Position numbers and translations under genes: made by a program | NCBI GenBank assembly: GCA_027494135.1 | Contig: JAOSJK010000001.1 | Coordinates: 475,378 to 539,377, forward strand | Source: Acidimicrobiia bacterium | Lineage (GTDB): Bacteria; Actinomycetota; Acidimicrobiia; IMCC26256; PALSA-610 | Direction: 5' to 3' | DNA length: 64,000 bases | Shown: positions 14,230 through 63,060 of the stretch, one piece after another | Numbering within the stretch: position 1 is the stretch's first letter | Layout: every line of letters starts with the position of its first letter | The notes under the pieces: generated by a model | The model's input: the letters and a program-made list of their open reading frames with translations, nothing else | What the model was told of the DNA's origin: nothing | Databases searched by the model: none

Positions 14230-15344
14230 GTGACGCGCGCGTACCTAGACCACGCCTCCTCATCGCCGCTGCGCCCGGCCGCGCTCGAGGCGATGCTTCC
14301 GTTCCTGCGCGAGCACCACGCCGACCCCGGACGCCTGCACGCCGAGGGACGCGTGGCGCGGGTTGCCGTCGAGCACGCACGCGAGCAGGTCGGCGCGCTC
14401 CTGGGAGCGCGACCGCGCGAGGTCGTCTTCACCGGGAGTGGGACCGAGGCGGTGAACGCCGCTGTCTGGGGGGCGCTCGCGAAGGCCGGCGGTAGGGGTC
14501 ACGTCGTGACGACCGCGGTCGAGCACTCCGCCGTCCACGAGTCGATCGACCGCGCCGGCGTCGAGACAACCGTGGTCGGGGTCGACCACCTCGGTCGCTT
14601 CGACCCGAGCGAGGTCACCGACGCCGTGCGCGCCGATACCGTCCTCGTCTCCGTGCAGCTCGCCAATCACGAGGTGGGAGCCGTTCAGACGATTCCTTCT
14701 GTCGATGGCCCTCTGCTGCACGTCGACGCCTGCGCCGCCGCCGGGCACCTGCCGATCTCGTTCGCGGAGATGGGCGCCGACCTCTGCTCCGCCACCTCCC
14801 ACAAGCTCGGCGGGCCGAAGGGTGCGGCCGCTCTCCTGGTGCGGCGCGGGCTGCGGGTCCCGCCCATGGTGGTCGGCGGCGCCCAGGAGCGTGCACGGGC
14901 GCCGGGATGGAGAACGTCGCCGCGATCGTCGGGTTCGGAGCAGCCTGCGAGCAGGTAGCGCCCTGCATCGACTCCGAGATCGGAGCGCAGCAGGCGCTCT
15001 CGGCTTCGCTGCTGATGGCCGCTCTAGACGTTGCCGGCGTCCACCTGCTCGGCGACCCGGACCCCGCCGGCCGCCTACCCCACATCGTCTGCCTCGGCAT
15101 AGACGGAGTGGAGGCGGAGCCCATCCTCCTCGCACTCGACCAGAAGGGCGTGGCCGTCCACTCCGGATCGTCGTGCTCCAGCGAGATGCTGGAGCCCTCT
15201 CCCGTGCTGCGCGCCATGGGCGCCGACGCCGACCACTCGCTGCGCATCTCGGTCGGCTGGAACAGCGACGACACCGACGTCACCCAATTCGCCGGCGCCT
15301 TCCCCGGGATCGTCGAGCGCCTGCGCGCCCTCCGCGCCCGCTGA
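14230..15344 (+). CDS. Cysteine desulfurase (NifS/IscS class), one frameshift
   Basis: PLP-dependent class V aminotransferase-fold enzyme that removes sulfur from cysteine as a persulfide for Fe-S cluster or thio-cofactor synthesis. It begins at GTG 14230 with YLDHASSSPLRP; the cofactor-binding GSGTEAVNAAV and TAVEHSAV follow, and the Schiff-base Lys192 sits in ATSHKLGGPKG. After a frameshift near 14900 (a ggg run; one added G gives ARRAGMENVAAIVG) the active-site cysteine loop HSGSSCSSEM appears around 15160-15190, followed by the normal LRISVGW C-terminus. Joined length is about 372 residues. It is directly downstream of the SufR-like regulator and probably in one transcript with it. Confidence 0.9.
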
Positions 15345-46321: not shown

Positions 46322-46903
46322 ATGCGCCTGCCCGCCGACCAGCGACGCCGACAGCTCCTCGATGTCGCGCGCGACGTATTCGCCGAACGCGGATTCCACG
46401 CGACATCCATGGACGAGGTCGCGGTGGCGGCCGGCGTCACGAAGCCGGTCCTCTACCAGCACTTCCCATCGAAGCGCTCTCTCTACTCGGAGCTGCTCGA
46501 AGACGTGGGCGCGCAGCTCCTCGAGCAGCTCGGGCGCGCCACCGAGGGTGCAACAACCGGTCGCGAGCAGGTCGAGGAGGGCTTCGCCGCCTACTTCCGA
46601 TTCGTCGGCTCGAACCACTCGGCCTTCCGACTCCTCTTCGGCGCTTCCGTGCGCAACGACCCCGAGTTCGCGGTCATCGCCGAGCGGACCGTCCAGGCCG
46701 CGGCGGAGGTGATCTCCTCGCTGATAGCCGTCCCGGCCCCCACCGAGCAGCGCCGGGTGCTCGCGAACGCGCTCGTGGGAATGGCCGAGGCCACGAGCCG
46801 CAGAATGCTCGCCGACCCCGACGCCGAGAGCGACCCGTACGCGCTGGCGCGCTGGATCGCAGAGCTCGCCTGGTTCGGTCTCCGCGGCGTGCGCAGCGGC
46901 TAG
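46322..46903 (+). CDS. TetR-family transcriptional regulator
   Basis: A 193-aa regulator. The N-terminal helix-turn-helix reads [48 protein letters not shown], a textbook TetR motif; the C-terminal helical ligand domain has a TetR_C-like pattern ([17 protein letters not shown]). It follows the alcohol dehydrogenase and aldo/keto reductase and overlaps the convergent coaA end by 4 bp. It could control these genes, or recognise the TAGAAC-type operator at 49013; both are unproven. Confidence 0.88.
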
Positions 46904-48040: not shown

Positions 48041-48796
48041 TCAGGTGGTGAGGCCGTCGTCGACGGTGAGGATCGCGCCGGTGATGTGTGTGGCGTCGTC
48101 TGACGCGAGGAAGGTGATGGCAGCGGCGACGTCCTCGGGTTGCGCGAAGGCCTCGTTCGGTGCGACGAGACGGGCGATGAGCGCGTCGTCACCGTCCTCG
48201 GGTGGTACGAAGCTTCCGATCAGCGGGGTCACCACACCACCTGGGCAGATCGCGTTCACCCGCACACCGCTCTTCGCGTACTCGAGCGCGAGGGCCCTCG
48301 TGAGCGAGACGACGCCGCCCTTCGAAGCGCAGTAGGCGGCTGCGTAGGGTGCGCCCTTGATCCCGGCGGTCGAAGCGACGTTGACGATCGCGCCTCCGCC
48401 TGCCGCAAGCAGGTGGGGAAGCGCCTCGCGGCTCATGAGGAAGGGGCCGGTCATGTTCACGGCGACGACCCTGCTCCAGTGGTCGAGCGTCTCCGCCGCA
48501 GTGTGACGGAACCCGCCGATCCCGGCGACGTTCGCCAGCACATGGAGGCCGCCGTACGCCTCGACCGTGGCGGTCACCGCGGCCTTCACAGACTCCTCGT
48601 CGGTCACGTCGGTCTCGACGCCGATCGCCTCGCCGGCGGCGGCGCCGATCGTCGCGACGGTCTCGTCAACGCCCTGCTTGTTCACGTCGAGGCACGCGAC
48701 GCGAGCGCCGCCGGCGGCGAACCGCACGGCCGTGGCCCTGCCGATGCCCGAGCCCGCGCCCGTCACGATCACCGTCTTCGAGTCGAAGGCACCCAT
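48041..48796 (-). CDS. SDR-family NAD(P)-dependent oxidoreductase
   Basis: A 251-aa classical short-chain dehydrogenase starting at ATG 48796: cofactor motif [10 protein letters not shown], Asp after the second strand (ACLDVNKQ) favouring NAD(H), NVAGIGG, catalytic Ser in [10 protein letters not shown], and YCASKGG with the Tyr-x3-Lys pair. The C-terminal [14 protein letters not shown] is typical of 3-oxoacyl-ACP-reductase-like members. It is divergent from the FAD oxidoreductase cluster and could share the regulatory region 48797-49103. Confidence 0.9.
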
Positions 48797-49103
48797 GGCC
48801 GTCCCCTGCGCTGCTCACAGAACACGGTCGGCGCCGATGCGGCCGAACAAGAACGCGTTCCTATTTCTCGGCGACGTTATCCCCGGAGCGCCGGCCGGGC
48901 AACGCCGGCCGGCGCAGTACTGCGCTTCGAGAGAGCCCCCTCCGCCAGAGCAGAGGAGCGCTATCGGGCCTGTTGCCCCCGGTCGAACTCGGTCGTACAA
49001 TACGGACGGTTTTAGAACCTGTTCTATTTTCGTTCCATTCCATATTCACCGTCCATCTCGAGTCTCGGCACGGTCCACGGGCCGGGTTGCGGAGGAGGAG
49101 CCC
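48797..49103. promoter_or_regulatory. SDR / FAD-cluster divergent control region with TAGAAC operator
   Basis: A promoter reading right is visible: TTGCCC (48973-48978), 17 bp, TACAAT (48996-49001). Just beyond the expected start lies a perfect 14-bp palindrome TAGAAC-CT-GTTCTA (49013-49026). This fits TnnAACnnGTTnnA, the operator form of mycobacterial KstR and several other actinobacterial TetR repressors of lipid or steroid catabolism. Its position fits repression by blocking elongation or open-complex formation. GGAGGAGGAG precedes the ATG at 49104. No gene is seen in the rest of this stretch. Confidence 0.7.
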
Positions 49104-50900
49104 ATGGCAGTCGCATCCACTGAGACCCGATCACCGAGGCCGGCGGTCGACGCCGCCACGGGCGAGCGCCTCGCCCGGCGATCGGAGCAGCGATACGACT
49201 TCGTCGTCGTGGGCGGGGGCCCCAACGGGCTCGGCATCGCCGCGTACCTGTCGAAGTGGGGATTCAGCGTCTGCATGCTCGAGGCGCGTCCGGAGATCGG
49301 TGGCGGGGCCGAGAACACCGAGCCGATACCCGGTTACTCGATCGACCCCCACGCCTCCTACTTCTACGGGGCTCCCGCGCCGGCGATCGGCCAGCTCGAC
49401 CTCGCCCGCTACGGCCTCCGCTGGTCGTTCATCAAGAACTTCGGCGGCTGCATCACGCGCGACGGACGCCCCTTCTTCGGCGGCAACTTCTTCCACGACG
49501 AGGTCGGCCGCGACCCGGAGACCTACGTCCGCATGCTCGGCGTCGATCGCGACACGGCGAAGATGTATCTGGAGTTCATGGAGGCTCTCCGCCCCGCTGC
49601 GATCGACTTCTTCCGCAGCATCTACTGGACCCCGCCATACGACGAGAAGTGGGGCGTACCGAAGAACGAGCTCCCCGTGGCACGGAGTGCTCTCGGAGGC
49701 CCTCCCGCTCTGGGACGAGTCGCTCATCGACATGTCGTTCATGGAGATGATGGAGGGCCTCGGCCTGCCTGATCCGGTGAAGGCCGGGATGCTGGTCGGT
49801 GCATGGGGTAACGGACCGCACCCCTACTGGAAGGGGATGGCGCTCCCGGGCTTCGCTTGTACGCAGCTCATGATGTACATGGCAGCCACCCCCGTCGGGG
49901 AATGCACTCGCTGGCCCACTCGCTCGCCAGGTGTGCGCTCGCCAACGGGGCGCGGATCGTCGTCAACAGCCCGGTGTCGGAGGTCATCATCGTCGACGGC
50001 GAGGCCAAGGGGGTCCGCGTCAGCGGTGACTCCCTACTCGACGACAAGACGATCTGGGCCGACCGCGGCGTGATCCTCAACACGCACGTCAAGCAGATCC
50101 CCGACCTCATCAGCCGCGACCACGTCAACACCACCTTCGTGCAGCGGATCGAGGATCTGAGCCTGAAGGGCGGGAGCCTCTTCGTCACGAACCTCATCGT
50201 CAAGGAGCTCCCCGTATACAAGGACGCTCCCGAGGAGTTCAGCCCCGACGACTACCCCGTGGGGATGTCGCTCCACTGCGACACCGACAACGTGATGGAG
50301 CTGATGCGCACCATCCACTCCTTCAGGATGCATCCCGAGCATCCCGACGAGTACGCAGGCATCTGGTACATCGTGCACGATCAACACGACCCCACTCGCG
50401 GGCGCGCGAAGAAGGCCGGCGCCGAGGGTCACGTGATCACCGTCAACCTCCAGGTCCCGGCTCCCGAGTACCACCGCGACGGACCCGACGCGGTGAACAA
50501 GGTCAAGGACGAGATCGTCGACAACATCAAGACCGTGCTGCGGCAGTACGCGCCCAATATGACCGACGACAAGTACATCGCCACACCCACGAACACGCCG
50601 TACGACTCGGAGTTCCGGAACATGGCGTTCGTCGGAGGCAACTGGGAGGGTGCACGCTCCTCACAGGACGAGTGGTGGTCGAACAAGCCGCTCCCCGAGA
50701 TGGCGCGCTACCGGACACCGATCGCCGGCCTCTACCACTGCCACCAGACCGCATACCCCGGAGGTCTCTGCCTCATCGCGGTCCCCTACAACCTCATGCA
50801 CATCCTGATCGAGGACTACCCCGAGATGAAGAAGTCGACGCCCGACTGGTGGTACCCGTCACCGTGGCACATCACCGACGAAGAGGGGGGCACGAAGTGA
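49104..50900 (+). CDS. Phytoene-desaturase-like FAD oxidoreductase 1, two frameshifts
   Basis: About 599-residue NAD(P)/FAD-dependent oxidoreductase (amine-oxidase/CrtI superfamily). The dinucleotide-binding motif FVVVGGGPNGLGIAAYL and following EARPEIGGGAENTE are near the N-terminus; the C-terminal FAD-contacting segment is GLYHCHQTAYPGGLCLIA. Breaks occur near 49690 and 49905; one added G at the second restores GMHSLAHSLARCALANGARIVVNSPVSEV, the product-side FAD segment. No Tat or signal peptide. First of three tandem paralogues; it overlaps the second by 4 bp. The family covers carotenoid desaturases, isomerases and related hydride-transfer enzymes; the substrate is unknown but probably a hydrophobic polyene or lipid. 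Confidence 0.82.
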
Positions 50901-52598
50901 GCGAGGCAGCTTTCCGGCGTCACCGGCCGAGCCCTTCCGCAGGGCTCGAGCTGCCGCCCGAGTTCCCCGAGGAGTCCGAGACCGATGTCGTGGTCATCGG
51001 CGCGGGTCCGAACGGCCTCATCGCCGCCGCGTATCTCACCGCAGCGGGGCTCGACGTGACGCTCCTCGAACGTCGCTACGAGATCGGTGGCGGTCTCGCC
51101 ACCGAGGAGATCCTCTTCCCGCACCACTATGCGAACACGCACGCGTCGTATCACTACATGGTCGACTACATGCCCCCGATCGACGACTTCGATCTCACAG
51201 GTCACGGCCTGCGGTATCACAAGCCGTTCGGGCAGACCGGCGCCGTCATGGGCTCCGACTACGTCTACCTCTGCCGCGCGTTCGAGGACACACGCGACTC
51301 CCTCGCCCGCTTCGGGCTCGACCAGGCCGACGTGTACGGCGCGATGGGCTCACGGTTCCGCACGATCGTCGAGAGGATCCTCGGGCCTGCGACGTACTTG
51401 CCGCCCGACGCTCCGGTCGACCTCACGGAGGCGCTGCAGCGTGACGACGTCGGTCGCGACATGCTCGACCTCTCCGAGCAGAGTGCCTTGGAGATCCTCG
51501 ACCGGTACGAGCTGCGCGACTCCGTCAAGGCGACCTTCCTCTACATGGCATGTCAGTGGGGGCTCTCGCCGGCGGAGAGCGGCATGGGGTTCATGGTCCC
51601 GCTGCTGATCGACCGCGGCATGCAGAAGGCGTTCGTCCACGGCGGCTCGCACAGGCTGGCGTCGGCGTTCGCCCGCGTGATCCTGCGGCAGGGCGGCATC
51701 ATCCTCGACAACGCCGAGGTGGTCCAGATACTCACCGACGGTGAGCGCGCCTCGGGAGTCATGCTCGAGGACGGCCGCAAGATCCACGCACGCAAGGCCG
51801 TGTTGTCGAGCCTCGACCCGCAGACCACGTTCCTTCACCTGCTCCCGGCCGAAGCCGCGCCCGAAGGCCTGCGCGAGTCCGCGCGCGGCTGGAACTGGGA
51901 CAAGTGGTCGTTGCTCTCCGTCTTCTTCGCGACGAAGGGCAAGCCGACGTGGCGTGACAACCGCGACAACTCGATGATCGGCATGCCGGACCCGTTCGCG
52001 ACGATCCTCGGCTTCGAGGGCTCCGACGACGTCGTGAGGTTCCTCGACGGTGTCGAGCGCGGTGAGCTGCCCAAGATCGCGGGTCACTTCACGTGCGAGA
52101 GCGCCTTCGACCCGGCGTTGAGCCAGAAGGAGGGCGAGCACGTCTCCTTCTTCCAGATGCCCGCCCCCTACGACTTTCCTTGGGAGGAGCGTCGCGACGA
52201 CCTCGTCCGCCAGGTGACCGACCTGCTCGACACGCACTTCGGAGGGATTCCGCGACTCGGTCATGCAGGTGGTCGTGGAGTCGCCGAAGTCCATCGAGCA
52301 GCGGATGCCGAACATGGTCCGTGGCTCGATCAAGCACGGCGACTACAACCCGATCCAGATGGGCAACAACCGCCCCAACGCCGACTGCTCGTCGAGTCGC
52401 ACGCCGGTCGAGGGCCTGTACCTGTGCGGCGCCTCGATGTTCCCCGGAGGGATGGTCATCGGTGGGCCCGGCTACATCGCCGCACAGATCGTCTGCGCCG
52501 ACAGCGAGACGAAGTTCCCGTTCGCCTACCCCGACCGCGTACTCCGGTACCTCGACACGTACTTCCCCGACGGCAAGGACGACGTCCTGCGCGGCTGA
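50897..52598 (+). CDS. Phytoene-desaturase-like FAD oxidoreductase 2, one frameshift
   Basis: About 567-residue paralogue starting at GTG 50897 (overlapping the previous stop). N-terminal VVVIGAGPNGLIAAAYLTAAGLDVTLLERRYEIGGGLATEE, central VHGGSHRLASAFARVILRQGG and C-terminal GLYLCGASMFPGGMVIGGPGYIAAQ are the expected FAD-binding segments. The frame breaks near 52250 (DTHFGGIPR then DSVMQVVVESPKSIEQRM). It is of the same family as the flanking genes but clearly diverged, so the three are not recent duplicates. Function inferred only to superfamily level. Confidence 0.84.
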
Positions 52599-52685
52599 CC
52601 GCCTCCGAGATGCATCGAGGTGCCGCAGACGGTGGTTGCCACCCCGTGACCGGCGGTTGTAGAAAGACACGCGAATCGTGACGAA

Positions 52686-52707
52686 GGGCCGCGCCCGGGC
52701 GCGGCCC
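52686..52707. promoter_or_regulatory. 22-bp perfect GC palindrome in the leader of the third FAD gene
   Basis: The arms GGGCCGCGCC (52686-52695) and GGCGCGGCCC (52698-52707) are separated by CG, 4 bp before the GAGGAGAG ribosome binding site of the gene at 52722. There is no U-run. It could attenuate transcription between the second and third FAD genes or set their stoichiometry. Confidence 0.6.
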
Positions 52708-52721
52708 AACGAGGAGAGCGG

Positions 52722-53475
52722 ATGAGTTCGGCCGCCCCAGACCACACAGCACAGACCCGTCGCGGCCGAGCGCGGTCCGAGCGGCCCGGCCCGCAGGGCC
52801 AGGAGCGGGAAGCCTTCGACGTCATCGTGGTCGGCGCCGGTCCCGGCGGGCTCGCCTGCTCGGCCCGCCTGGCGCACCGTGGTCTCCGTGCAGACGATCG
52901 ACATCGCCGACGGCGTGGTCCGCGGCATCACCACGAGGAAGGGCAGCTTCACTGCCCGTGCCGTGATCAGCAACGTCGGGATTCAACCGACCGTCCAGAA
53001 GCTCGCCGGCGCCGAACACTTCCCGGCGGAGTACGTGAAGTACGTCCGAGACCTCGAGCCCGGATGGGGCTGTGCGAGCATCCGCTACTACCTGTCGCGC
53101 AAGGTGCTCGACGCCCCGATGGCCATGATCTACGCCGACGACACCTGGTACACCACCGAGCGCTACGACCGATTACGCCGCGGCGAATGGGATGACGACG
53201 TGACCATCTTCCTCACGGTGCCGGGCAATCTCGACCCGTCGATGGCGCCACCCGGCAAGCAGTGCATCGTCGCCGGGTCGATCTGCTCGCCCGATCCCCT
53301 AGCTGCCGAGATAGAGGAGATCTACCGTCGGATGGACGCCACGATGACCAAGATCTTCCCCGAGGCCATGGCTGCCGTCGAGCGCCGCGTCACCGAGGGC
53401 ATGGGGACCAACCAGGCCGGCGGCTCCGGAATGCGGGTCGCAGCGATGGTGCACGAGCACCTGACGCACGCGTGA
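52722..53475 (+). pseudogene. Phytoene-desaturase-like FAD oxidoreductase 3, internally deleted
   Basis: The first 50 or so codons (ATG 52722) encode the dinucleotide-binding start DVIVVGAGPGGLACSARLAHRG. Immediately afterwards, near 52880, the sequence jumps into what in paralogues is the second half (VSVQTIDIADGVVRGITTRKGSFTARAVISNVG) in another frame and continues normally to the C-terminus (MGTNQAGGSGMRVAAMVHEHL). About 200-250 residues are missing compared with the neighbouring paralogues. Either the gene is a real deletion derivative or the assembly collapsed here. The stop overlaps the next gene start (TGATG). Confidence 0.65.
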
Positions 53476-54830
53476 TGCCTCGGACCGCGGCCGCGGCGTC
53501 GCTTGCCCTGCTCGTCGCGGTCGCCTCCGGCTGCGGAACGCGTGTCGACGGCACCGACACCGCCGGCGGTACCGGATCGCGGTTGAACCCGCCCACGAGT
53601 GCGCCGGACTCCCCGGGCACCAGCGACACTCCGGGTACCACCGACCCGACACTGAGCGACTCGCCCTGCGGGCCCGGCGACGCCGCCGGAGCGACCGATG
53701 TCGGCGTGACAGACGACACGATCACCATCTACACGATCCACGACCTGAGCGGACCCGCTCCGGGGCTCTTCCAGGCCAACCAGGACGCGGTGAAGGCCTT
53801 CGTCGCGTACTGCAACAGCCTCGGCGGGGTGCTCGGTAGAGAGCTCGAGCTCGTGACGCGCGACTCGGGCTTCTTCGAGCCCCGTGCACAGATAGTCGAT
53901 GCATGCAGGGAGGCATTCGCCGTTGTCGGCGGAGCGGTCGTCTTCGACGATCAGATGATCGACGTGGCCGAGGAGTGCGGCATCCCCGAGCTGCCGTCGT
54001 TCTCGTCGACACCGCAGCACAGCATCGCATCGAACGTGGTTCACGCCGTGCCCAACGCCGCCACCGAGTGGCAGGCCGGGCCCGCGTACTGGTTCGCAGA
54101 GGAGTACCCCGACGCGGTGAAGCGCGCCGCCGTCCTCTACGCCGACGCCGGCACCACCAAGAACCGCGCCGAGATGCAGAAGGAGGCCTTCGCGCAGGCC
54201 GGGTTCGACTTCGTCATGGAGAAGGCGATCCCGCTCGTCGAGCTCAACTGGGGCCCGCACGTAGACGAGCTGCGATCGAAGGGGATCGGATACGTCACGA
54301 TCTGGTCCGATCTGAAGGAGCCCGTCAAGCTCGTGAAGGAGCTACGCGCCCAGGGCGTGGACATCGCGATCGTCGATATCGAGCCGCAGTCGTATACGAG
54401 CGACTTCCTCGAGCAGGCCGGCCCTGCAGCAGAGGGCGCGTACGTCGGAGTGAGCACGTGGCCGCTGGAGGAGGCAGACGAGAATGCCGAGCTCCAGCTC
54501 TACGGGGAGTGGGTCGACAGGACCACCGGCGGAGAACCGACCGCTCTGGGCATACACACCTGGTCGTCCGCCCTCCTCTTCGCGACCGCAGCGAAGGAGC
54601 TCGGCAGCGACCTGACGCGCGAGGGGCTGCTCGACCAACTGCACACGGTTCACGAGTGGGACGGCCACGGCATACACGCCCCAACCGACCCGGGAAGGAA
54701 CCACCTCGCCGAGTGCATCGTCATGCTCCAGGTGCAAGACGGGGAGTTCCGACGGGTATGGCCCGACGAGGGCTTCGCCTGCGACCCGCGCTACGCGGCG
54801 AAGGTGCGCGACCCGTCGGCCGGGGGATAG
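53475..54830 (+). CDS. ABC transporter substrate-binding lipoprotein, LivK-type
   Basis: A 451-aa extracytoplasmic binding protein. Lipoprotein signal LALLVAVASGC with Cys as the lipidated residue, then a Gly/Thr/Ser/Pro-rich linker, then a type I periplasmic-binding fold: DDTITIYTIHDLSGPAPGLFQANQDAVKAFVAYCNSLGGVLG, AVVGGAVVFDDQMID, and DIAIVDIEPQSYTSDF. It is fused translationally (TGATG) to the end of the FAD cluster and followed 6 bp later by the permease gene. LivK-type proteins bind branched-chain amino acids but relatives bind amides, aromatics and steroids; the ligand is unknown. Confidence 0.88.
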   Translation: MPRTAAAASLALLVAVASGCGTRVDGTDTAGGTGSRLNPPTSAPDSPGTSDTPGTTDPTLSDSPCGPGDAAGATDVGVTDDTITIYTIHDLSGPAPGLFQANQDAVKAFVAYCNSLGGVLGRELELVTRDSGFFEPRAQIVDACREAFAVVGGAVVFDDQMIDVAEECGIPELPSFSSTPQHSIASNVVHAVPNAATEWQAGPAYWFAEEYPDAVKRAAVLYADAGTTKNRAEMQKEAFAQAGFDFVMEKAIPLVELNWGPHVDELRSKGIGYVTIWSDLKEPVKLVKELRAQGVDIAIVDIEPQSYTSDFLEQAGPAAEGAYVGVSTWPLEEADENAELQLYGEWVDRTTGGEPTALGIHTWSSALLFATAAKELGSDLTREGLLDQLHTVHEWDGHGIHAPTDPGRNHLAECIVMLQVQDGEFRRVWPDEGFACDPRYAAKVRDPSAGG

Positions 54831-54836
54831 CGGACG

Positions 54837-56846
54837 TTGACGACCTTTCTGCGCCTCACGATCTTCGGCCTGGTCGCCGGCGGCAGCTACTCGGTCGCGG
54901 CGAGCGGCCTCGTCCTCACGTACACGACGTCGGGCATCTTCAACTTCGCGCACGGCGCCATCGGGATGCTCGCCGCATTCCTCTACTGGGAGCTGCACGT
55001 ACACCGCGGGTGGCCGACCCTCCTCGCGCTGATTGCAGTCCTGGTCTTCTTCGCGCCCCTCGCGGGAGCGCTCGTCGAACGATTCCTGGTGCGACCCCTC
55101 GAAGGGGCTTCCCTCTCGACGATGCTCGTGGTGACGGTCGGCCTGCTCGTCGGGTGCATCGGCCTCGCCCAGACCATCTGGCCGCCCGAGAGCAGGGTCG
55201 TCGAGGAGTTCTTCGCGCCTCACGGCTTCCGGGTCTTCGACGTATTCGTCTCCTGGCACAAGGCCATGACGATGCTGGTCGCCGTCGGAGTCGCTCTGGG
55301 CCTGCGTCTGCTCCTGCGGAGCACCAAGCGTGGGATCACGATGCGCGCCGTCGTCGACGACCGCGACCTGTCGTCGCTATCGGGGGCCAACCCCGCGCAC
55401 ACGAGCATGCTCTCGTGGGCGATCGGAGCGTCACTCGCGTCGCTCGCAGGAATCCTGCTGGCCCCGATCCTCACTCTCGACGTCGTCCCGCTCACCCTCC
55501 TGGTCATCAACGCATACGCCGCCGCCGTCGTCGGGGGGTTGCAGAGCATCTCGCTCACCTTCGGTGGAGCGATGCTGCTCGGGCTGCTGCAGTCGTACGC
55601 CTCGACCTATCTGCCCAAGGTCTTCCCGGGAGATCGCCTCCCCGACTGGCTGCCCGGTCTCAACGACTCGATCCCCGTTCTGCTGCTCTTCGTCGCGCTC
55701 CTCGCACTTCCGCAGGCCAGGCTGCACGGCACGCGCGTCATCAGAGCCGCCGCCGAGCGGGTGCCGCCGGTACGGCAGTCGATCGCCGCCGCCCTGGCTC
55801 TCGTCGGATGTGCCTACGTGGTCGTGGGCTTCCTGTCGAACCGCGACGTGACCCGCGTCGGAGAGGGGCTCGCCATCGGTCTGATCGGCCTCTCGCTCGT
55901 CCCTCTGACCGGGTACGCGGGGCAGGTCTCGCTCTGCCCACTCGCCTTCGCCGGGCTGGGAGCGGTGATGATGTCGAAGTTCGGCGGCGGCGGCTCGTGG
56001 ATCGGCCTCGTCGCGGCGGTGGGCGTTCCCGCCGCCGTGGGTGCCCTGGTGGCTCTCCCCGCACTCCGTCTTCAGGGCCTCTATCTGGCTCTGTCCACGC
56101 TGGCGTTCGCCGTCCTCATGGACAACATGATCTTCCCGCAGCGCCGCCTCTTCTGGACCAGCTCGGTGACCGTCGACCGGCCGGACATCCCCTTCGTCTC
56201 CCTCGCGAGCGATCGAGCCTGGTTCGTGGTGCTCGCCGGCGCCTACGGGGCGCTGGCAGTGTTCGTGCTCGCCGTGCGCCGTGGGTCCTTCGGCCGCCGG
56301 CTCCTCGCGCTCAAGGACAGCCCCGTGGCGTGCGCAACGCTCGGAATGAGCCTCACGCGCACCAAGCTCGTCGTCTTCGCGCTCTCTGCCGGGATGGCCG
56401 GTCTGGGGGGCGCCCTCTACGCCGCGCTGCGCGTGGGCGTCTCGGCGAAGAGCTTCACGGCCGTCGGCGGCCTGGGCATCCTCCTCATCGCAGTGATCGG
56501 CGGGATCGAGATGGCGAGCGGACCACTCGTGGGAGGCCTCACGCTCGCCGCCATGACGATCGTCTCCCAGGAGATCGCAGCGCTCGACTGGCTCGCCGCG
56601 ATCGGCCCGGCCTTCGTCGCGGTGACGCTCGCGCGCAATCGCGAGGGGCTCGCCATCCGACTCGCCGAGATCGGACGCGGGCTCGCAGGTTGGAGGCCGC
56701 GACGCTCCAAGCTCGAGACCGACTGGCTGGCAACCATCGACGCGACCCTGCCTCCGCACGTTGCTCTGCAGCCCGAGCAGGTCGACGCGCTCGAAGAGGT
56801 CTTCCGGCTCGAGCCCGCGCTCTGCACCTCCGAGCCGGTCCGTTGA
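54837..56846 (+). CDS. Fused LivH-LivM branched-chain-type ABC permease
   Basis: A 669-aa protein starting at TTG 54837 and combining both permeases that are normally separate. The N-terminal LivH half has GLVAGGSYSVAASGLVLTYTTSGIFNFAHGAIGML; the LivM half begins near residue 345 with GLIGLSLVPLTGYAGQVSLCPLAFAGLGA and contains the EAA-like loop GRRLLALKDSPVACATLGMSLTRTKLVVFALSAGMAG. About 17-18 membrane segments are expected. No frame errors. It sits between the binding protein and LivF; the second ATPase, LivG, is 5.5 kb away. Confidence 0.9.
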   Translation: MTTFLRLTIFGLVAGGSYSVAASGLVLTYTTSGIFNFAHGAIGMLAAFLYWELHVHRGWPTLLALIAVLVFFAPLAGALVERFLVRPLEGASLSTMLVVTVGLLVGCIGLAQTIWPPESRVVEEFFAPHGFRVFDVFVSWHKAMTMLVAVGVALGLRLLLRSTKRGITMRAVVDDRDLSSLSGANPAHTSMLSWAIGASLASLAGILLAPILTLDVVPLTLLVINAYAAAVVGGLQSISLTFGGAMLLGLLQSYASTYLPKVFPGDRLPDWLPGLNDSIPVLLLFVALLALPQARLHGTRVIRAAAERVPPVRQSIAAALALVGCAYVVVGFLSNRDVTRVGEGLAIGLIGLSLVPLTGYAGQVSLCPLAFAGLGAVMMSKFGGGGSWIGLVAAVGVPAAVGALVALPALRLQGLYLALSTLAFAVLMDNMIFPQRRLFWTSSVTVDRPDIPFVSLASDRAWFVVLAGAYGALAVFVLAVRRGSFGRRLLALKDSPVACATLGMSLTRTKLVVFALSAGMAGLGGALYAALRVGVSAKSFTAVGGLGILLIAVIGGIEMASGPLVGGLTLAAMTIVSQEIAALDWLAAIGPAFVAVTLARNREGLAIRLAEIGRGLAGWRPRRSKLETDWLATIDATLPPHVALQPEQVDALEEVFRLEPALCTSEPVR

Positions 56847-57645
56847 ACCGCCTCCAGACCCTCGGGGGTCGACCTGCGCCAGACGCGTCCCGCGACACCG
56901 CTCCCGCCGACGACCGTCATGCGCGCCCGCCCGTCCTCGAACTCATGGGTGTCTGCGCCGCATACGGCTCGATCGAGGTCCTCCACGGCGTCGATCTCAC
57001 CGTGGCGCGGGGGAGCGTCGTCGCTTTGCTGGGACCGAACGGTGTGGGGAAGTCCACGACGCTCAAGGTCGCCGCCGGGCTCGTCGCTCCGACGGCCGGC
57101 TGCGTCCACGTGGCGGGCCGGCACCTGAACGGCGCCCCTGCCGACGCGATCGCGCGCGCCGGTGTACGTACCGTGCCCGAGAGGCGAGGGGTCTTCCCCA
57201 ATCTGACCGTCGCGGAGAACCTCCGCCTGCTAACTGGACGCGGCCGGTCGCTCGCGCACGTCCAGGAAAGCGCGTACGCACGTTTTCCCCGACTCGGCGA
57301 GCGACGCCGCCAGCTCGCCGGGACGCTGTCGGGCGGCGAGCAGCAGATGCTCGCGATCGCGCGTGCTCTGGCCACCGATCCGGCGCTGCTCCTGGTCGAC
57401 GAGCTCTCGATGGGCCTCTCGCCGCTGCTCGTCCAGGAGCTCTACGGTCACCTCGCAGTGATCGCGGCCGACGGGGTGTCGATCCTCGTGGTGGAGCAGT
57501 TCGCCCACGCGGTGCTGGGGGTCGCTGATCACGCGGCCCTCATGCTGCACGGTCGCGTTCAGCGTTCCGGACCCCCGCCGAGCTCGCAGGAGATCTGGCG
57601 GCCGCGTACCTCGGAGCCGACGGACACGGCACCAGCACGTGCTAG
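56843..57645 (+). CDS. livF: Branched-chain-type ABC transporter ATPase LivF, one frameshift
   Basis: About 267-residue ABC ATPase starting at TTG 56843 (4-bp overlap with the permease). After a 35-residue polar extension: ELMGVCAAYGSIEVLHGVDL, Walker A LLGPNGVGKSTTLKVAAG, the LivF-typical PERRGVFPNLTVAENL, signature LSGGEQQMLAIARAL, Walker B LLLVDELSMGLSP (Glu of Walker B retained in DELS) and VVEQFAHAVLG. The frame breaks near 57570; one added G gives TPAELAGDLAAAYLGADG and a stop at 57645. Confidence 0.9.
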
Positions 57646-57706: not shown

Positions 57707-58174
57707 GTGACACAGCCTGACCCGACAGAGGAGCTCGAAGGGGCCGGCGACGGCGCCGAGCGCAGGGAAGATCAGCTCGATCGCGCAGTTGCATCCCTAC
57801 GCGTCGCTGGAACACACGGGCCCGAGACGCGCGCGCTCGTTGCGGGCGGCGTGCTGATGCTGGCCGGAGTCGGATTCGTCATCGCGGGCTGGTGGGGGGT
57901 CTCGGGCACGCTCGACGTCGGTCGACAGATGCCGTACCTGGTCTCGGGCGGGCTGGCCGGAATCGCTCTCGCAGTCATCGGCGCGACGCTCTACCTCCGG
58001 TTCTCACTGGCGCGATACCTGCGGTACTGGCTGATCCGACTCGTCCACGAGCAGCGCGACCAGAACGAGCGCACGCTGGAGGAGCAGAGCCGTCAAGGCG
58101 ACCGTATCGTGGAGGCCCTGGCCCGTCTGGAAGAGCTGCTCACCGACGGTCCGCACGAGAAGCCCGGCACCTGA
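57707..58174 (+). CDS. Small membrane protein with two spans and coiled-coil tail
   Basis: A 155-aa protein starting at GTG 57707 with AGGAG 7 bp upstream. An acidic N-terminus is followed by two membrane helices (LVAGGVLMLAGVGFVIAGWWG; YLVSGGLAGIALAVIGATLYL) and a charged helical tail (HEQRDQNERTLEEQSRQGDRIVEALARLEELL) likely to form a coiled coil. No family is recognised. It lies at the end of the Liv-type operon and may be part of it. Confidence 0.65.
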   Translation: MTQPDPTEELEGAGDGAERREDQLDRAVASLRVAGTHGPETRALVAGGVLMLAGVGFVIAGWWGVSGTLDVGRQMPYLVSGGLAGIALAVIGATLYLRFSLARYLRYWLIRLVHEQRDQNERTLEEQSRQGDRIVEALARLEELLTDGPHEKPGT

Positions 58175-58201: not shown

Positions 58202-60394
58202 CTACGCCGGCGGGTCGCCGAGAGCCTCGACTACTTCCTCCTCGAGGACGTGGCGCGCCAGCTCGCTCTCCTTCTCGACACTCACGTGCGGAAGGATCCG
58301 GTCGAGCCATCCCGGAAGCCACCAGTTCGCGCGGTCGAGCAGCTCCATCGCGGCGGGTACGAGAAGCGTCCTCACCAGGATGGCGTCGAGGAGTATCGCC
58401 GACGCGAGGCCGACGCCGAAGAGCTTGAGGACGCGGTCGTCGTTCAGCATGAACGACCCGAAGACGATCACCATGATCGTCGCAGCCGCGGTGATCACAC
58501 GCGCCGTGACTGCGAGGCCGTCTGCGACGGCCAAGCCGTTGTCGCCGGTCCTCAGGTACTCCTCCTGTATCCGGGTCACGAGGAAGACCTCGTAATCCAT
58601 CGAGAGACCGAAGAGGACGGCGAAGAGCCACATCGGCACCATCGAGAGGATCGGTCCGGTGCGGTCGATTCCGACGAGGTCCGCGCCCCATCCCCACTGG
58701 AACACCGCGATCACGAGCCCGTAGGCGGCTCCTATCGAGAGCAGGTTCATGAGAACGGCCTTCAGCGGGACGAGGATCGAGCGGAAGACCACGACGAGCA
58801 GCAGGAACGACAGGACCAGGACGCACCCGATGAAGATCCCTAGGCGCCCGCCGACTACCTCGGCGACGTCGATCGAGGACGCCGTGATCCCTGCGAGATG
58901 CGCCGTGATCCCGGTGCCCGCCAGTGCCGCCGGAACGACGTCGTCGCGCAGCTCCCGGAAGAGGCGGTCCGTGGCCTCCGAGCGCGGCGACGTGCTCGGG
59001 ACCACGGCCACGATCGCGGCGTCGCCCGTCTCGTTGAACTCCGGAGGAAGTGCCACCAGCACGCCGTCGGTCCCGGCGAGCGCATCGACGAGACCGTCGA
59101 GCGCGGTGCTATCGCCGAGCGACTCCGAGGGGATCGCGACGACGACCGCAATCGGTCCGTTCACGCCTGGCCCGAAGCCGTCGGCGATCAGGTCGTAGGC
59201 GCGCCGGGCACTCGTGGAACGGGGCTCGGTGCCGTCGTCGGATGACCCCAGGCGCATCGACAGGACCGGCACCGACATGACCAGGAGAACCGTCGCGCCG
59301 GAGGCGAGCGCCCACCACGGGTGTCGCTGGACGAGGCGGCTCCATCGGAACCAGCCGGTTCGACGGTGACCCGTCTCCCGGCGATGCCTCCCGACAGGTA
59401 GTCGGTCGATGGCGCGGCCCGTGAATCCGAGTGCAGCCGGCAGGAGAGTGATCGACGCGAGCATCGTGAGCACCACCGCGACGATCGCGCCGAGCGCCAG
59501 GCCGTGGAGGATCGGCATCCCCATGAGGAACATCCCGCTCATCGAGATGACTACGGTCGTGCCCGCGAACATCACCGACCGTCCCGAGGTGGTGAGAGCG
59601 ATCGCCGTCGCGTCCTCGGGTAACAGGCCGCCGTGGAGTCCCTGTCGGTACCGCGTGACGATGAGCAGCGCGTAGTCGACACCGACCCCGAGGCCGATCA
59701 TCATCGCTACCTGCGGGGCGAAGTCGGGGATGTCCAGGAGATTCATCGACAGAGTGAGCAGAGCGACGCCCACGCCGAGCGCCGAGAGCGCCACCAGGAT
59801 CGGAAGCCCCGCGGCGACGACAGACGCGAAGGTCAACAGCAGCACCACGACTGCAGCGACGAACCCCACGATCTCGCTCCGCCCGACGTGCTGCGCGCCC
59901 GCGTACTTCAGCGCCTCGCCGCCGACCTCGACATCGACGCCCTCGCCTCTCAGCCCGTCGAGGATGCGGTCGAAGTCGCCCGCGACGGCCGGGGGGACAT
60001 CCGCACCGGCCACGTCGAGCTGAACGGATGCCATGGCGATCGTGCCGTCGGCGGAGACGGCCGGCAGCGCCGCATCGAACGGATCGCTGACAGAGCGGAC
60101 GTGATCGACCTCGCCGATATCGGAGAGGGTCGACTCCACCGCCGCACGAACGTCGGCTTCTCCGACGCCGGCCTCCGCCCTGATCACGATGTTGGCGGTG
60201 TCGCCCGATCGCTCAGGGAAACGCTCGCGCAGCAGATCGACGGCCATCTGGGAGTCGGTGCCCGGGACCGTGAAGTCGTTGATCGGCTCGCCGCCGTACT
60301 GGAAGGCTGCCGTGACCGCCAGGACGACCAGGAGTGCCCAGCCGGCCGCGACGAACCGGCGGTGGCGGTAGCACCAACGGGCTAGGTGTTCCAC
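58202..60394 (-). CDS. MMPL-family RND-type lipid/drug exporter
   Basis: A 730-aa membrane protein starting at GTG 60394 (WCYRHRRFVAAGWALLV). It has the twelve-segment two-repeat MMPL layout: first-repeat segment VAMMIGLGVGVDYALLIVTRYR and second-repeat equivalent WLFAVLFGLSMDYEVFLVTRIQEEY, each holding the conserved Asp-Tyr pairs thought to carry protons. Two large external loops follow the first and seventh helices. MMPL proteins export lipids and siderophores in mycobacteria. It converges on the Liv operon end with 27 bp between stops; a lipid-related role is consistent with the neighbourhood but unproven. Confidence 0.92.
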   Translation of the reverse strand: MEHLARWCYRHRRFVAAGWALLVVLAVTAAFQYGGEPINDFTVPGTDSQMAVDLLRERFPERSGDTANIVIRAEAGVGEADVRAAVESTLSDIGEVDHVRSVSDPFDAALPAVSADGTIAMASVQLDVAGADVPPAVAGDFDRILDGLRGEGVDVEVGGEALKYAGAQHVGRSEIVGFVAAVVVLLLTFASVVAAGLPILVALSALGVGVALLTLSMNLLDIPDFAPQVAMMIGLGVGVDYALLIVTRYRQGLHGGLLPEDATAIALTTSGRSVMFAGTTVVISMSGMFLMGMPILHGLALGAIVAVVLTMLASITLLPAALGFTGRAIDRLPVGRHRRETGHRRTGWFRWSRLVQRHPWWALASGATVLLVMSVPVLSMRLGSSDDGTEPRSTSARRAYDLIADGFGPGVNGPIAVVVAIPSESLGDSTALDGLVDALAGTDGVLVALPPEFNETGDAAIVAVVPSTSPRSEATDRLFRELRDDVVPAALAGTGITAHLAGITASSIDVAEVVGGRLGIFIGCVLVLSFLLLVVVFRSILVPLKAVLMNLLSIGAAYGLVIAVFQWGWGADLVGIDRTGPILSMVPMWLFAVLFGLSMDYEVFLVTRIQEEYLRTGDNGLAVADGLAVTARVITAAATIMVIVFGSFMLNDDRVLKLFGVGLASAILLDAILVRTLLVPAAMELLDRANWWLPGWLDRILPHVSVEKESELARHVLEEEVVEALGDPPA

Positions 60395-60615
60395 GGTGCG
60401 GACTCCGGTTACGCGAGATGGCGGGCGGCTCGAGCAGCCGTCGGCGGTGCAGCCTACCGGCGGCGCTCCACGCCGGAGCTGCTCCGCCGGCCGGTCGCCG
60501 CGGTCGAGGTCGTAGGCTCTGTCGCGCGTGCGCGCCGGGTCTGTATGCACCGTCGACGTCTCGCCGACAACCCGACGAGAGCGACACACGCCTCGCCGAT
60601 CTGCGGGAGTGAACC

Positions 60616-62319: not shown

Positions 62320-63060
62320 ATGCCGCTGCTCGCAGCCGAGGAGATCGGAGTCCGCTTCGGCGGCCTCCAGGCGCTCGACGGAGTGAACCTGGAAGTCGAG
62401 GCCGGGAGCATCACTGGCCTGATCGGCCCCAACGGCGCCGGCAAGACGACCCTCTTCAACGTGGTCTGCGGGCTTCAGTCGCCGACGCACGGCTCGGTAC
62501 TCCTCGAGGGTCGCGACATCACCCGGCTCTCCCCCGCTCGGCGTGCACGCCTCGGCATCGGACGCACCTTCCAGCGACTCGAGATCTTCGGCTCGCTCTC
62601 GGTGCGCGACAACGTACTGGTCGCCGCCGAGGCGCGGCGCGACTGGTCACGAGAGATGTTCTCACCCGGACGCGTCGCAGACGAGGTCCTCGATCGGACG
62701 GGCCTCCGCGACCTGTCCTCCGAGCCTGCCGGCGCGCTCCCCACGGGAACCGCCCGACTCGTAGAGCTGGCCCGCGCGCTCGCGACCGCGCCGCGCGTTC
62801 TCCTCCTCGACGAGCCGTCTTCGGGCCTCGACGAGTCGGAGAGCTGCGCCCTCGGCGACCTGCTCACCGATCTCGTCGCCGACGACGGACTCGGGATCCT
62901 CCTCGTCGAGCACGACATGGCCGTGGTCATGCGCGTCTGCTCGGAGATCTACGTCCTCGACCTCGGCGCCGTCGTCGCCGCGGGACCACCCCTGACGATC
63001 CAGAGCGACGCCCGGGTGAGAGCCGCGTACCTCGGCGACGCGGTCCCCGCTCACCTCTGA
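62320..63060 (+). CDS. livG: Branched-chain-type ABC transporter ATPase LivG
   Basis: A 246-aa ABC ATPase starting at ATG 62320 with AGGAG 8 bp upstream. Motifs: VRFGGLQALDGVNL, Walker A LIGPNGAGKTTLFNVVCGL, the LivG-typical LGIGRTFQRLEIFGSLSVRDNV, Walker B LLLDEPSSGLDE and HDMAVVMRVCSEIYVLDLG. The ABC signature is atypical: ALPTGTARLVELARAL replaces LSxGQ, so ATPase competence at that site is questionable. It is the missing partner of the Liv-type importer encoded 5.5 kb upstream. Its stop codon overlaps repeat copy A4. Confidence 0.9.
   Translation: MPLLAAEEIGVRFGGLQALDGVNLEVEAGSITGLIGPNGAGKTTLFNVVCGLQSPTHGSVLLEGRDITRLSPARRARLGIGRTFQRLEIFGSLSVRDNVLVAAEARRDWSREMFSPGRVADEVLDRTGLRDLSSEPAGALPTGTARLVELARALATAPRVLLLDEPSSGLDESESCALGDLLTDLVADDGLGILLVEHDMAVVMRVCSEIYVLDLGAVVAAGPPLTIQSDARVRAAYLGDAVPAHL

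Follow-up and report, generated by a model that had tools for sequence, protein, structure and literature searches.

The 14-bp sequence TAGAACCTGTTCTA at positions 49013-49026 of the window, the 64-kb stretch of DNA analysed here, is very probably a KstR-type operator, judging by its sequence and its setting. It precedes a set of genes for FAD-dependent oxidoreductases and a Liv-type ABC importer, and it is the 14-mer to which KstR binds at a Mycobacterium tuberculosis promoter. The distribution of further sites and the nature of the neighbouring genes indicate that the source genome carries a KstR-like regulon, in which this operator would control a gene cluster with a candidate lipid importer.

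The palindrome and its promoter

The operator of M. tuberculosis KstR (Rv3574) was defined as TnnAACnnGTTnnA by Kendall et al. (2007), and the palindrome in the mycobacterial kstR promoter is TAGAAC(N2)GTTCTA; the site GTTAGAACCTGTTCTACTCG at Rv3520c/Rv3521 was bound by KstR in EMSA (PMC1995591). A perfect TAGAAC-CT-GTTCTA palindrome had been reported at 49013-49026 by the sequence-only reading and is located exactly there (unstranded). It corresponds to the TnnAACnnGTTnnA operator in its ideal form and is identical to the Rv3520c/Rv3521 operator. On both strands of the window, it is the sole match to the pattern TNNAACNNGTTNNA, for which dinucleotide-preserving shuffles predict 0.05 matches.

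The core promoter of the oxidoreductase/importer operon, TTGCCC-17-TACAAT (48973-49001, plus strand), is the only sigma-70-like promoter detected in the 501 bp between 48700 and 49200 (0.0 in shuffles), and a similar geometry of hexamers and operator is found at orthologous promoters. The operator begins 11 bp past the end of TACAAT at 49001, as measured from consensus matches and not from mapped starts. This agrees with the roughly 12 bp given earlier and supports the proposed repressor position just beyond the core promoter.

A second, weaker operator, AAGAACGCGTTCCT (48849-48862, unstranded), is separated by 52 bp from the start of a divergent gene for an SDR-family oxidoreductase (48041-48796, minus strand), which has homologues beside the first oxidoreductase gene, ox1, in relatives. 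A promoter-like TTGCCC-15-GATAAC (48876-48902, minus strand) is positioned 13 bp before this operator, and both operators share the single 307-bp gap between the SDR and oxidoreductase genes. With a position weight matrix derived from 12 sites of the same genome outside the window, the 49013 site ranked first in the window with 21.7 bits and the 48849 site second with 17.2 bits, and the third rank had 13.2 bits. In 40 Markov versions of the window, the maximum score averaged 12.8 and none reached the score of the 49013 site; these bit scores are descriptive only, because the training sites had themselves been picked by pattern.

Candidate regulators and the sites across the genome

Two KstR homologues were found in the source genome with the profile NF033703, at C12:188485-189012 (142 bits) and C12:820471-821013 (130 bits), and one of them matches the M. 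tuberculosis KstR structure in the PDB with an E value of 7e-23. All other TetR proteins of the genome score at most 38 bits with this profile. Because neither score reaches the equivalog cut-off of 280 bits, we call the two homologues KstR-like. An operator is present in front of each, TGCAACACGTTCTA at one and TAGAACGCGTTCAT at the other. The site TGCAACACGTTCTA is kept ahead of the KstRb orthologue in four relatives (G002, G003, G008 and G013) and occurs as TGCAACCGGTTCTA in a fifth (G001); its conservation at the same place in five relatives reads as a phylogenetic footprint of autoregulation. The likely regulators of the 49013 operator are thus predicted to be encoded on another contig, C12, and not in the window.

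The second KstR homologue (L018:17442-18063) has no in-frame ATG, GTG or TTG before the methionine of MALAAEGGYD, and a frameshift error near its N-terminus is likely because the operator overlaps an out-of-frame ATG and an in-frame start is missing. A family of 373-amino acid proteins without Pfam match has one member beside a KstR homologue of this genome and another beside an ox1 copy of the relative G021; the two (L018:18182-19300 and L064:18887-19966) are 45% identical.

The source genome (G000, from an uncultured Acidimicrobiia-related actinobacterium) comprises 3.93 Mb on 80 contigs and is 77.5% complete. Throughout the genome, 20 matches to the operator pattern were counted versus 5 for the reversed pattern, these statistics being based on pattern searches and on selected stretches of the genome. 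The TAGAAC half-site is present in 12 distinct sites, most of which are on C12 at 180-207 kb and 808-834 kb. The sites are found approximately 30-250 bp ahead of genes for a FadD-type ligase, CYP125, an EchA19-type hydratase, FadA5 and FadE, and also ahead of genes for a Liv-type binding protein and permease and for FAD oxidoreductases. The site-bearing CYP125 matches CYP125 structures with a phmmer E value of 4.5e-153. The divergently encoded EchA19-type hydratase reaches 360 bits (cut-off 400) and exceeds the cut-off of the broader model PRK07799. FadA5 scores 675 bits with the steroid 3-ketoacyl-CoA thiolase model NF005889 (cut-off 515), and the site-bearing fadE gene is followed by genes for a lipid-transfer thiolase and an acyl-CoA ligase. 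Sites at genes for a Liv-type binding protein and a Liv-type permease occur in L018, and sites near binding-protein genes are also found in G021. The prediction that a genome search would find the motif at sterol and fatty-acid beta-oxidation genes was thus borne out (CYP125, FadA5, EchA19, FadD, FadE). Two matches, C1:752111 within a long coding frame and C1:1285809, were set aside, as they look like chance matches or have no assignable target.

The similarity to the Mycobacterium KstR regulon extends to individual sites: TGAAACGTGTTCTA at CYP125/EchA19 equals the 14-mer of Rv3545c/Rv3546 and TGTAACGTGTTCTA at FadA5 equals that of Rv3525c/Rv3526 of M. tuberculosis. Both systems share the 14-bp palindrome, its overlap with core promoters, doubled or divergent sites, autoregulatory sites at the repressor genes and targets of the CYP125, EchA19, FadA5, FadE and FadD types. 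In contrast to mycobacteria, the site-linked importer is of the Liv type (Peripla_BP_6, LivHM, LivF) and not Mce4, CrtI-like FAD oxidoreductases are prominent targets, and there are two KstR homologues, which are divergent and score under the equivalog cut-off. The marking of CrtI-like FAD oxidoreductases and branched-chain-type (Liv) ABC importers by such sites is new compared to mycobacteria; no paper linking KstR with Acidimicrobiia or Ilumatobacter was found in the incomplete collection that was searched.

That the operator belongs instead to a local regulator had been suggested for the TetR protein encoded at 46322-46903 (plus strand), which is a TetR family member only 2.1 kb away; we consider this highly unlikely, and the protein is very probably the wrong partner. 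Its best PDB matches are the FasR structures 6o6n/6o6p (E 1e-28), and it reaches 133 bits (133.5) with the FasR profile versus 25 bits with the KstR profile, although it stays below the 330-bit cut-off of the FasR equivalog NF053731 and can only be called FasR-like. Its recognition-helix region differs from VAVGTLYNYF and VALGTLYRHF, its gene is not adjacent to the cluster, and a matrix scan found nothing operator-like upstream of it (best score -1.5 bits). FasR of M. tuberculosis, its closest characterised relative, is an acyl-CoA-responsive activator of fas-acpS that acts via three inverted repeats (PMC7382501); nothing ties the FasR-like protein of the window to the 49013 site. A mere chance palindrome in a GC-rich window is more improbable still. 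The loose pattern did occur at least once in 5 of 100 shuffles, but the site is a perfect full palindrome at an exact promoter position with a second site in the same gap, and chance is contradicted by orthologous sites and by the genome-wide regulon. The shuffles, the genome-wide excess of 20 versus 5, the Markov versions and the counts at orthologous loci, described below, led us to reject it, and leave a KstR-type operator served by the KstR homologues on C12 as the preferred reading.

Homologous loci in relatives

Relatives of the ox1-ox2 gene pair with an adjoining SDR gene are present in Acidimicrobiia MAGs. SDRs with 56-59% identity adjoin the ox1 homologues of G021 and G030, and in G030 the SDR homologue has TGGAACGCGTTCCA 69 bp ahead of its start. 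Three copies of ox1 homologues with sites exist in G021, two of them with TGAAACCGGTTCTA and the third with TGGAACCGGTTCTT. The ox1 homologue of G030 has TGGAACGCGTTCTA upstream and a second site 18 bp further on; that of MAG SJ788 has TAGAACGCGTTCTA directly after CATAAT, again with another site 18 bp further along, and in MAG nzgw87 TATAACGTGTTCTT overlaps TATAAC. At these related ox1/SDR promoters, the operator is found between -6 and +13 bp from a -10-like box, which was recognised by consensus match only. Across 25 homologous loci, the upstream interval contained 7 sites, whereas the remaining DNA of these loci predicts approximately 0.5 and the reversed pattern gave 0. The exact 14-mer of the window is also found in G021 ahead of another FAD oxidoreductase, and of the 8 TAGAACNNGTTNNA (TAGAAC-type) sites in this relative, 7 cluster within a single 63-kb stretch that also contains ox1, Liv and FadE genes, the control giving 0.

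The expectation that the motif precedes orthologous clusters holds for G021, G030, SJ788 and nzgw87, but fails for the closest orthologue, ox1a of G021 (77-79% identity, same divergent SDR), and for the Microthrixaceae FR_25 locus L086, neither of which has a good site upstream. No site was found at ox1 homologues outside Acidimicrobiia (Chloroflexi, Desulfobacteraceae and others).

Several features of these loci were recorded in addition. In two different MAGs (L065:12139-12170; L076 ~126-157), ox1 is preceded by tandem operators with a spacing of exactly 18 bp, which suggests binding by cooperative dimer pairs. A small gene without Pfam match (VKLKSRGLGRKELVMDFREY...) lies between promoter and ox1 in relatives (L065:12248-12817; L062 ~14870-15240; L075); no such gene was seen in the window, and the operator there directly precedes ox1. 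At L020:14708-16001, there is a near-identical tandem pair of small toxin-antitoxin-like genes that start with MTKQTTVRLPEALADQAEAVARVQGK and VTRYVSLAEYFWLAEQVTGIEAAVL.

The oxidoreductases, the Liv-type importer and its possible substrate

All genes of the cluster behind the operator are encoded on the plus strand. The first, ox1 (49104-50900), encodes an FAD-dependent oxidoreductase of the CrtI/CrtO-like superfamily whose frame is broken by two compensating frameshifts; no close relative of ox1 was found among solved structures. It overlaps by GTGA with ox2 (50897-52598), which encodes a second FAD-dependent oxidoreductase and has a frameshift near the C-terminus; the intact orthologue of ox2 shows DAO/amino-oxidase Pfam matches and scores 154 bits with the CrtO profile (cut-off 1000). 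Like ox1, both ox2 and ox3 are assigned to the CrtI/CrtO-like group of FAD oxidoreductases. A third, short and frameshifted FAD-dependent oxidoreductase-like gene, ox3 (52722-53475), is followed by the genes for a Liv-type solute-binding protein (Peripla_BP_6; 53475-54830), whose start overlaps the ox3 stop, for a fused LivH-LivM-type permease (54837-56846), which begins 6 bp further on, and for a LivF-type ATPase (56930-57577, homology interval). The LivG-type ATPase (62326-63060) is set apart by a gene for an MMPL-family transporter (58202-60589, minus strand). The unit thus comprises Peripla_BP_6, a BPD_transp_2 permease and both LivG and LivF ATPases, as is typical for a Liv/HAAT-type ABC importer. 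The PDB relatives of the binding protein name only a putative branched-chain amino acid protein (3hut) and no lipid ligand.

The ox1/ox2 overlap, the ox3 stop/binding-protein start overlap and the 6-bp distance to the permease gene suggest one transcript, and co-transcription of the whole cluster is plausible from these overlapping genes, with LivG separated by opposite-strand genes. The gene content and function of the cluster are uncertain because the genome is 77.5% complete and all three oxidoreductase genes contain frameshifts. These frameshifts (49104-53475) are of the indel type, with the protein sequence carrying on in another frame, and are probably consensus errors of the metagenome assembly. 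A small membrane protein (57872-58174, plus strand) is kept in related importer clusters: three such clusters contain a copy (the window, L018:9929-10288 and L064:15037-15378), the window copy being 54% identical to that in L064, and the L018 homologue has no Pfam match.

We infer KstR-homologue binding, the ligand, the operon structure and a role in lipid or steroid import from the arrangement of sites and genes. In uninduced cells, one or both KstR homologues (C12:188485-189012 and/or C12:820471-821013) would bind 49013-49026 immediately past the -10 box and prevent transcription of the operon from ox1 through ox2, ox3, binding protein and permease to the ATPase, while the site at 48849-48862 would likewise block the divergent SDR gene. 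By analogy with the sterol side-chain acyl-CoA that acts on mycobacterial KstR, an intermediate of lipid breakdown may release the repressor, and the operon would then be induced together with CYP125, FadD, EchA19, FadA5 and FadE. The earlier idea that the cluster responds to a lipid-, steroid- or acyl-CoA-type ligand via a TetR regulator is supported in part: the KstR-type site stands at a repressor position, marks beta-oxidation genes as well and recurs at orthologous clusters, but the TetR protein proposed for binding tests is FasR-like.

Which lipid is concerned is less clear. The KstR-type site could well belong to a regulon for other branched or isoprenoid lipids, such as fatty acids, or for the breakdown of hopanoids or carotenoids, and the importer would then transport one of these lipids, or even a solute resembling an amino acid; we regard this as a serious possibility, though not as the probable one. 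It is favoured by the resemblance of ox1-ox3 to carotenoid desaturases and ketolases and by the generic roles in lipid metabolism of most enzymes in the regulon (FadD, FadE, thiolase, SDR). Moreover, a steroid-ring set is not established: Rieske and FAD_binding_2 searches for genes of the KstD and KshA/HsaC types returned a broken KstD-like gene far below the cut-offs and an extradiol dioxygenase that fits BphC better than HsaC. On the other hand, sites are carried by a FadA5 above the curated steroid-thiolase cut-off and by a close CYP125 relative. Aromatic-ring dioxygenase subunits and a BphC-like extradiol dioxygenase are encoded at C23:14-18 kb (L155, L157), the latter with 355 bits at a biphenyl-diol dioxygenase cut-off of 366.

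According to PMC4810484, the Mce4 steroid importer occurs only in mycolic acid bacteria and steroid importers other than Mce4 are unidentified, which makes the Liv-type unit a candidate substitute. Like Mce4, it would import lipids under the control of KstR, its lipid substrate being a candidate only; Mce4 contains an MlaD/Mce domain, whereas a domain search found no MlaD/Mce-domain protein in the source genome (77.5% complete), G021 or G030, and such a domain exceeded the cut-off in only 4 of 61 relatives. Tentatively, and with some doubt, we propose that KstR-marked Liv importers and CrtI-like oxidoreductases constitute an Mce4-independent route for uptake and first-step processing of steroids or isoprenoids in non-mycolic actinobacteria.

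These findings carry the KstR operator code beyond mycobacteria into Acidimicrobiia-related bacteria, with some 14-mers even being identical. The conserved KstR-type operator at a Liv-type importer provides a concrete and testable candidate importer for a lineage that has a gene set of the CYP125/FadA5 type and in which no Mce protein was detected.
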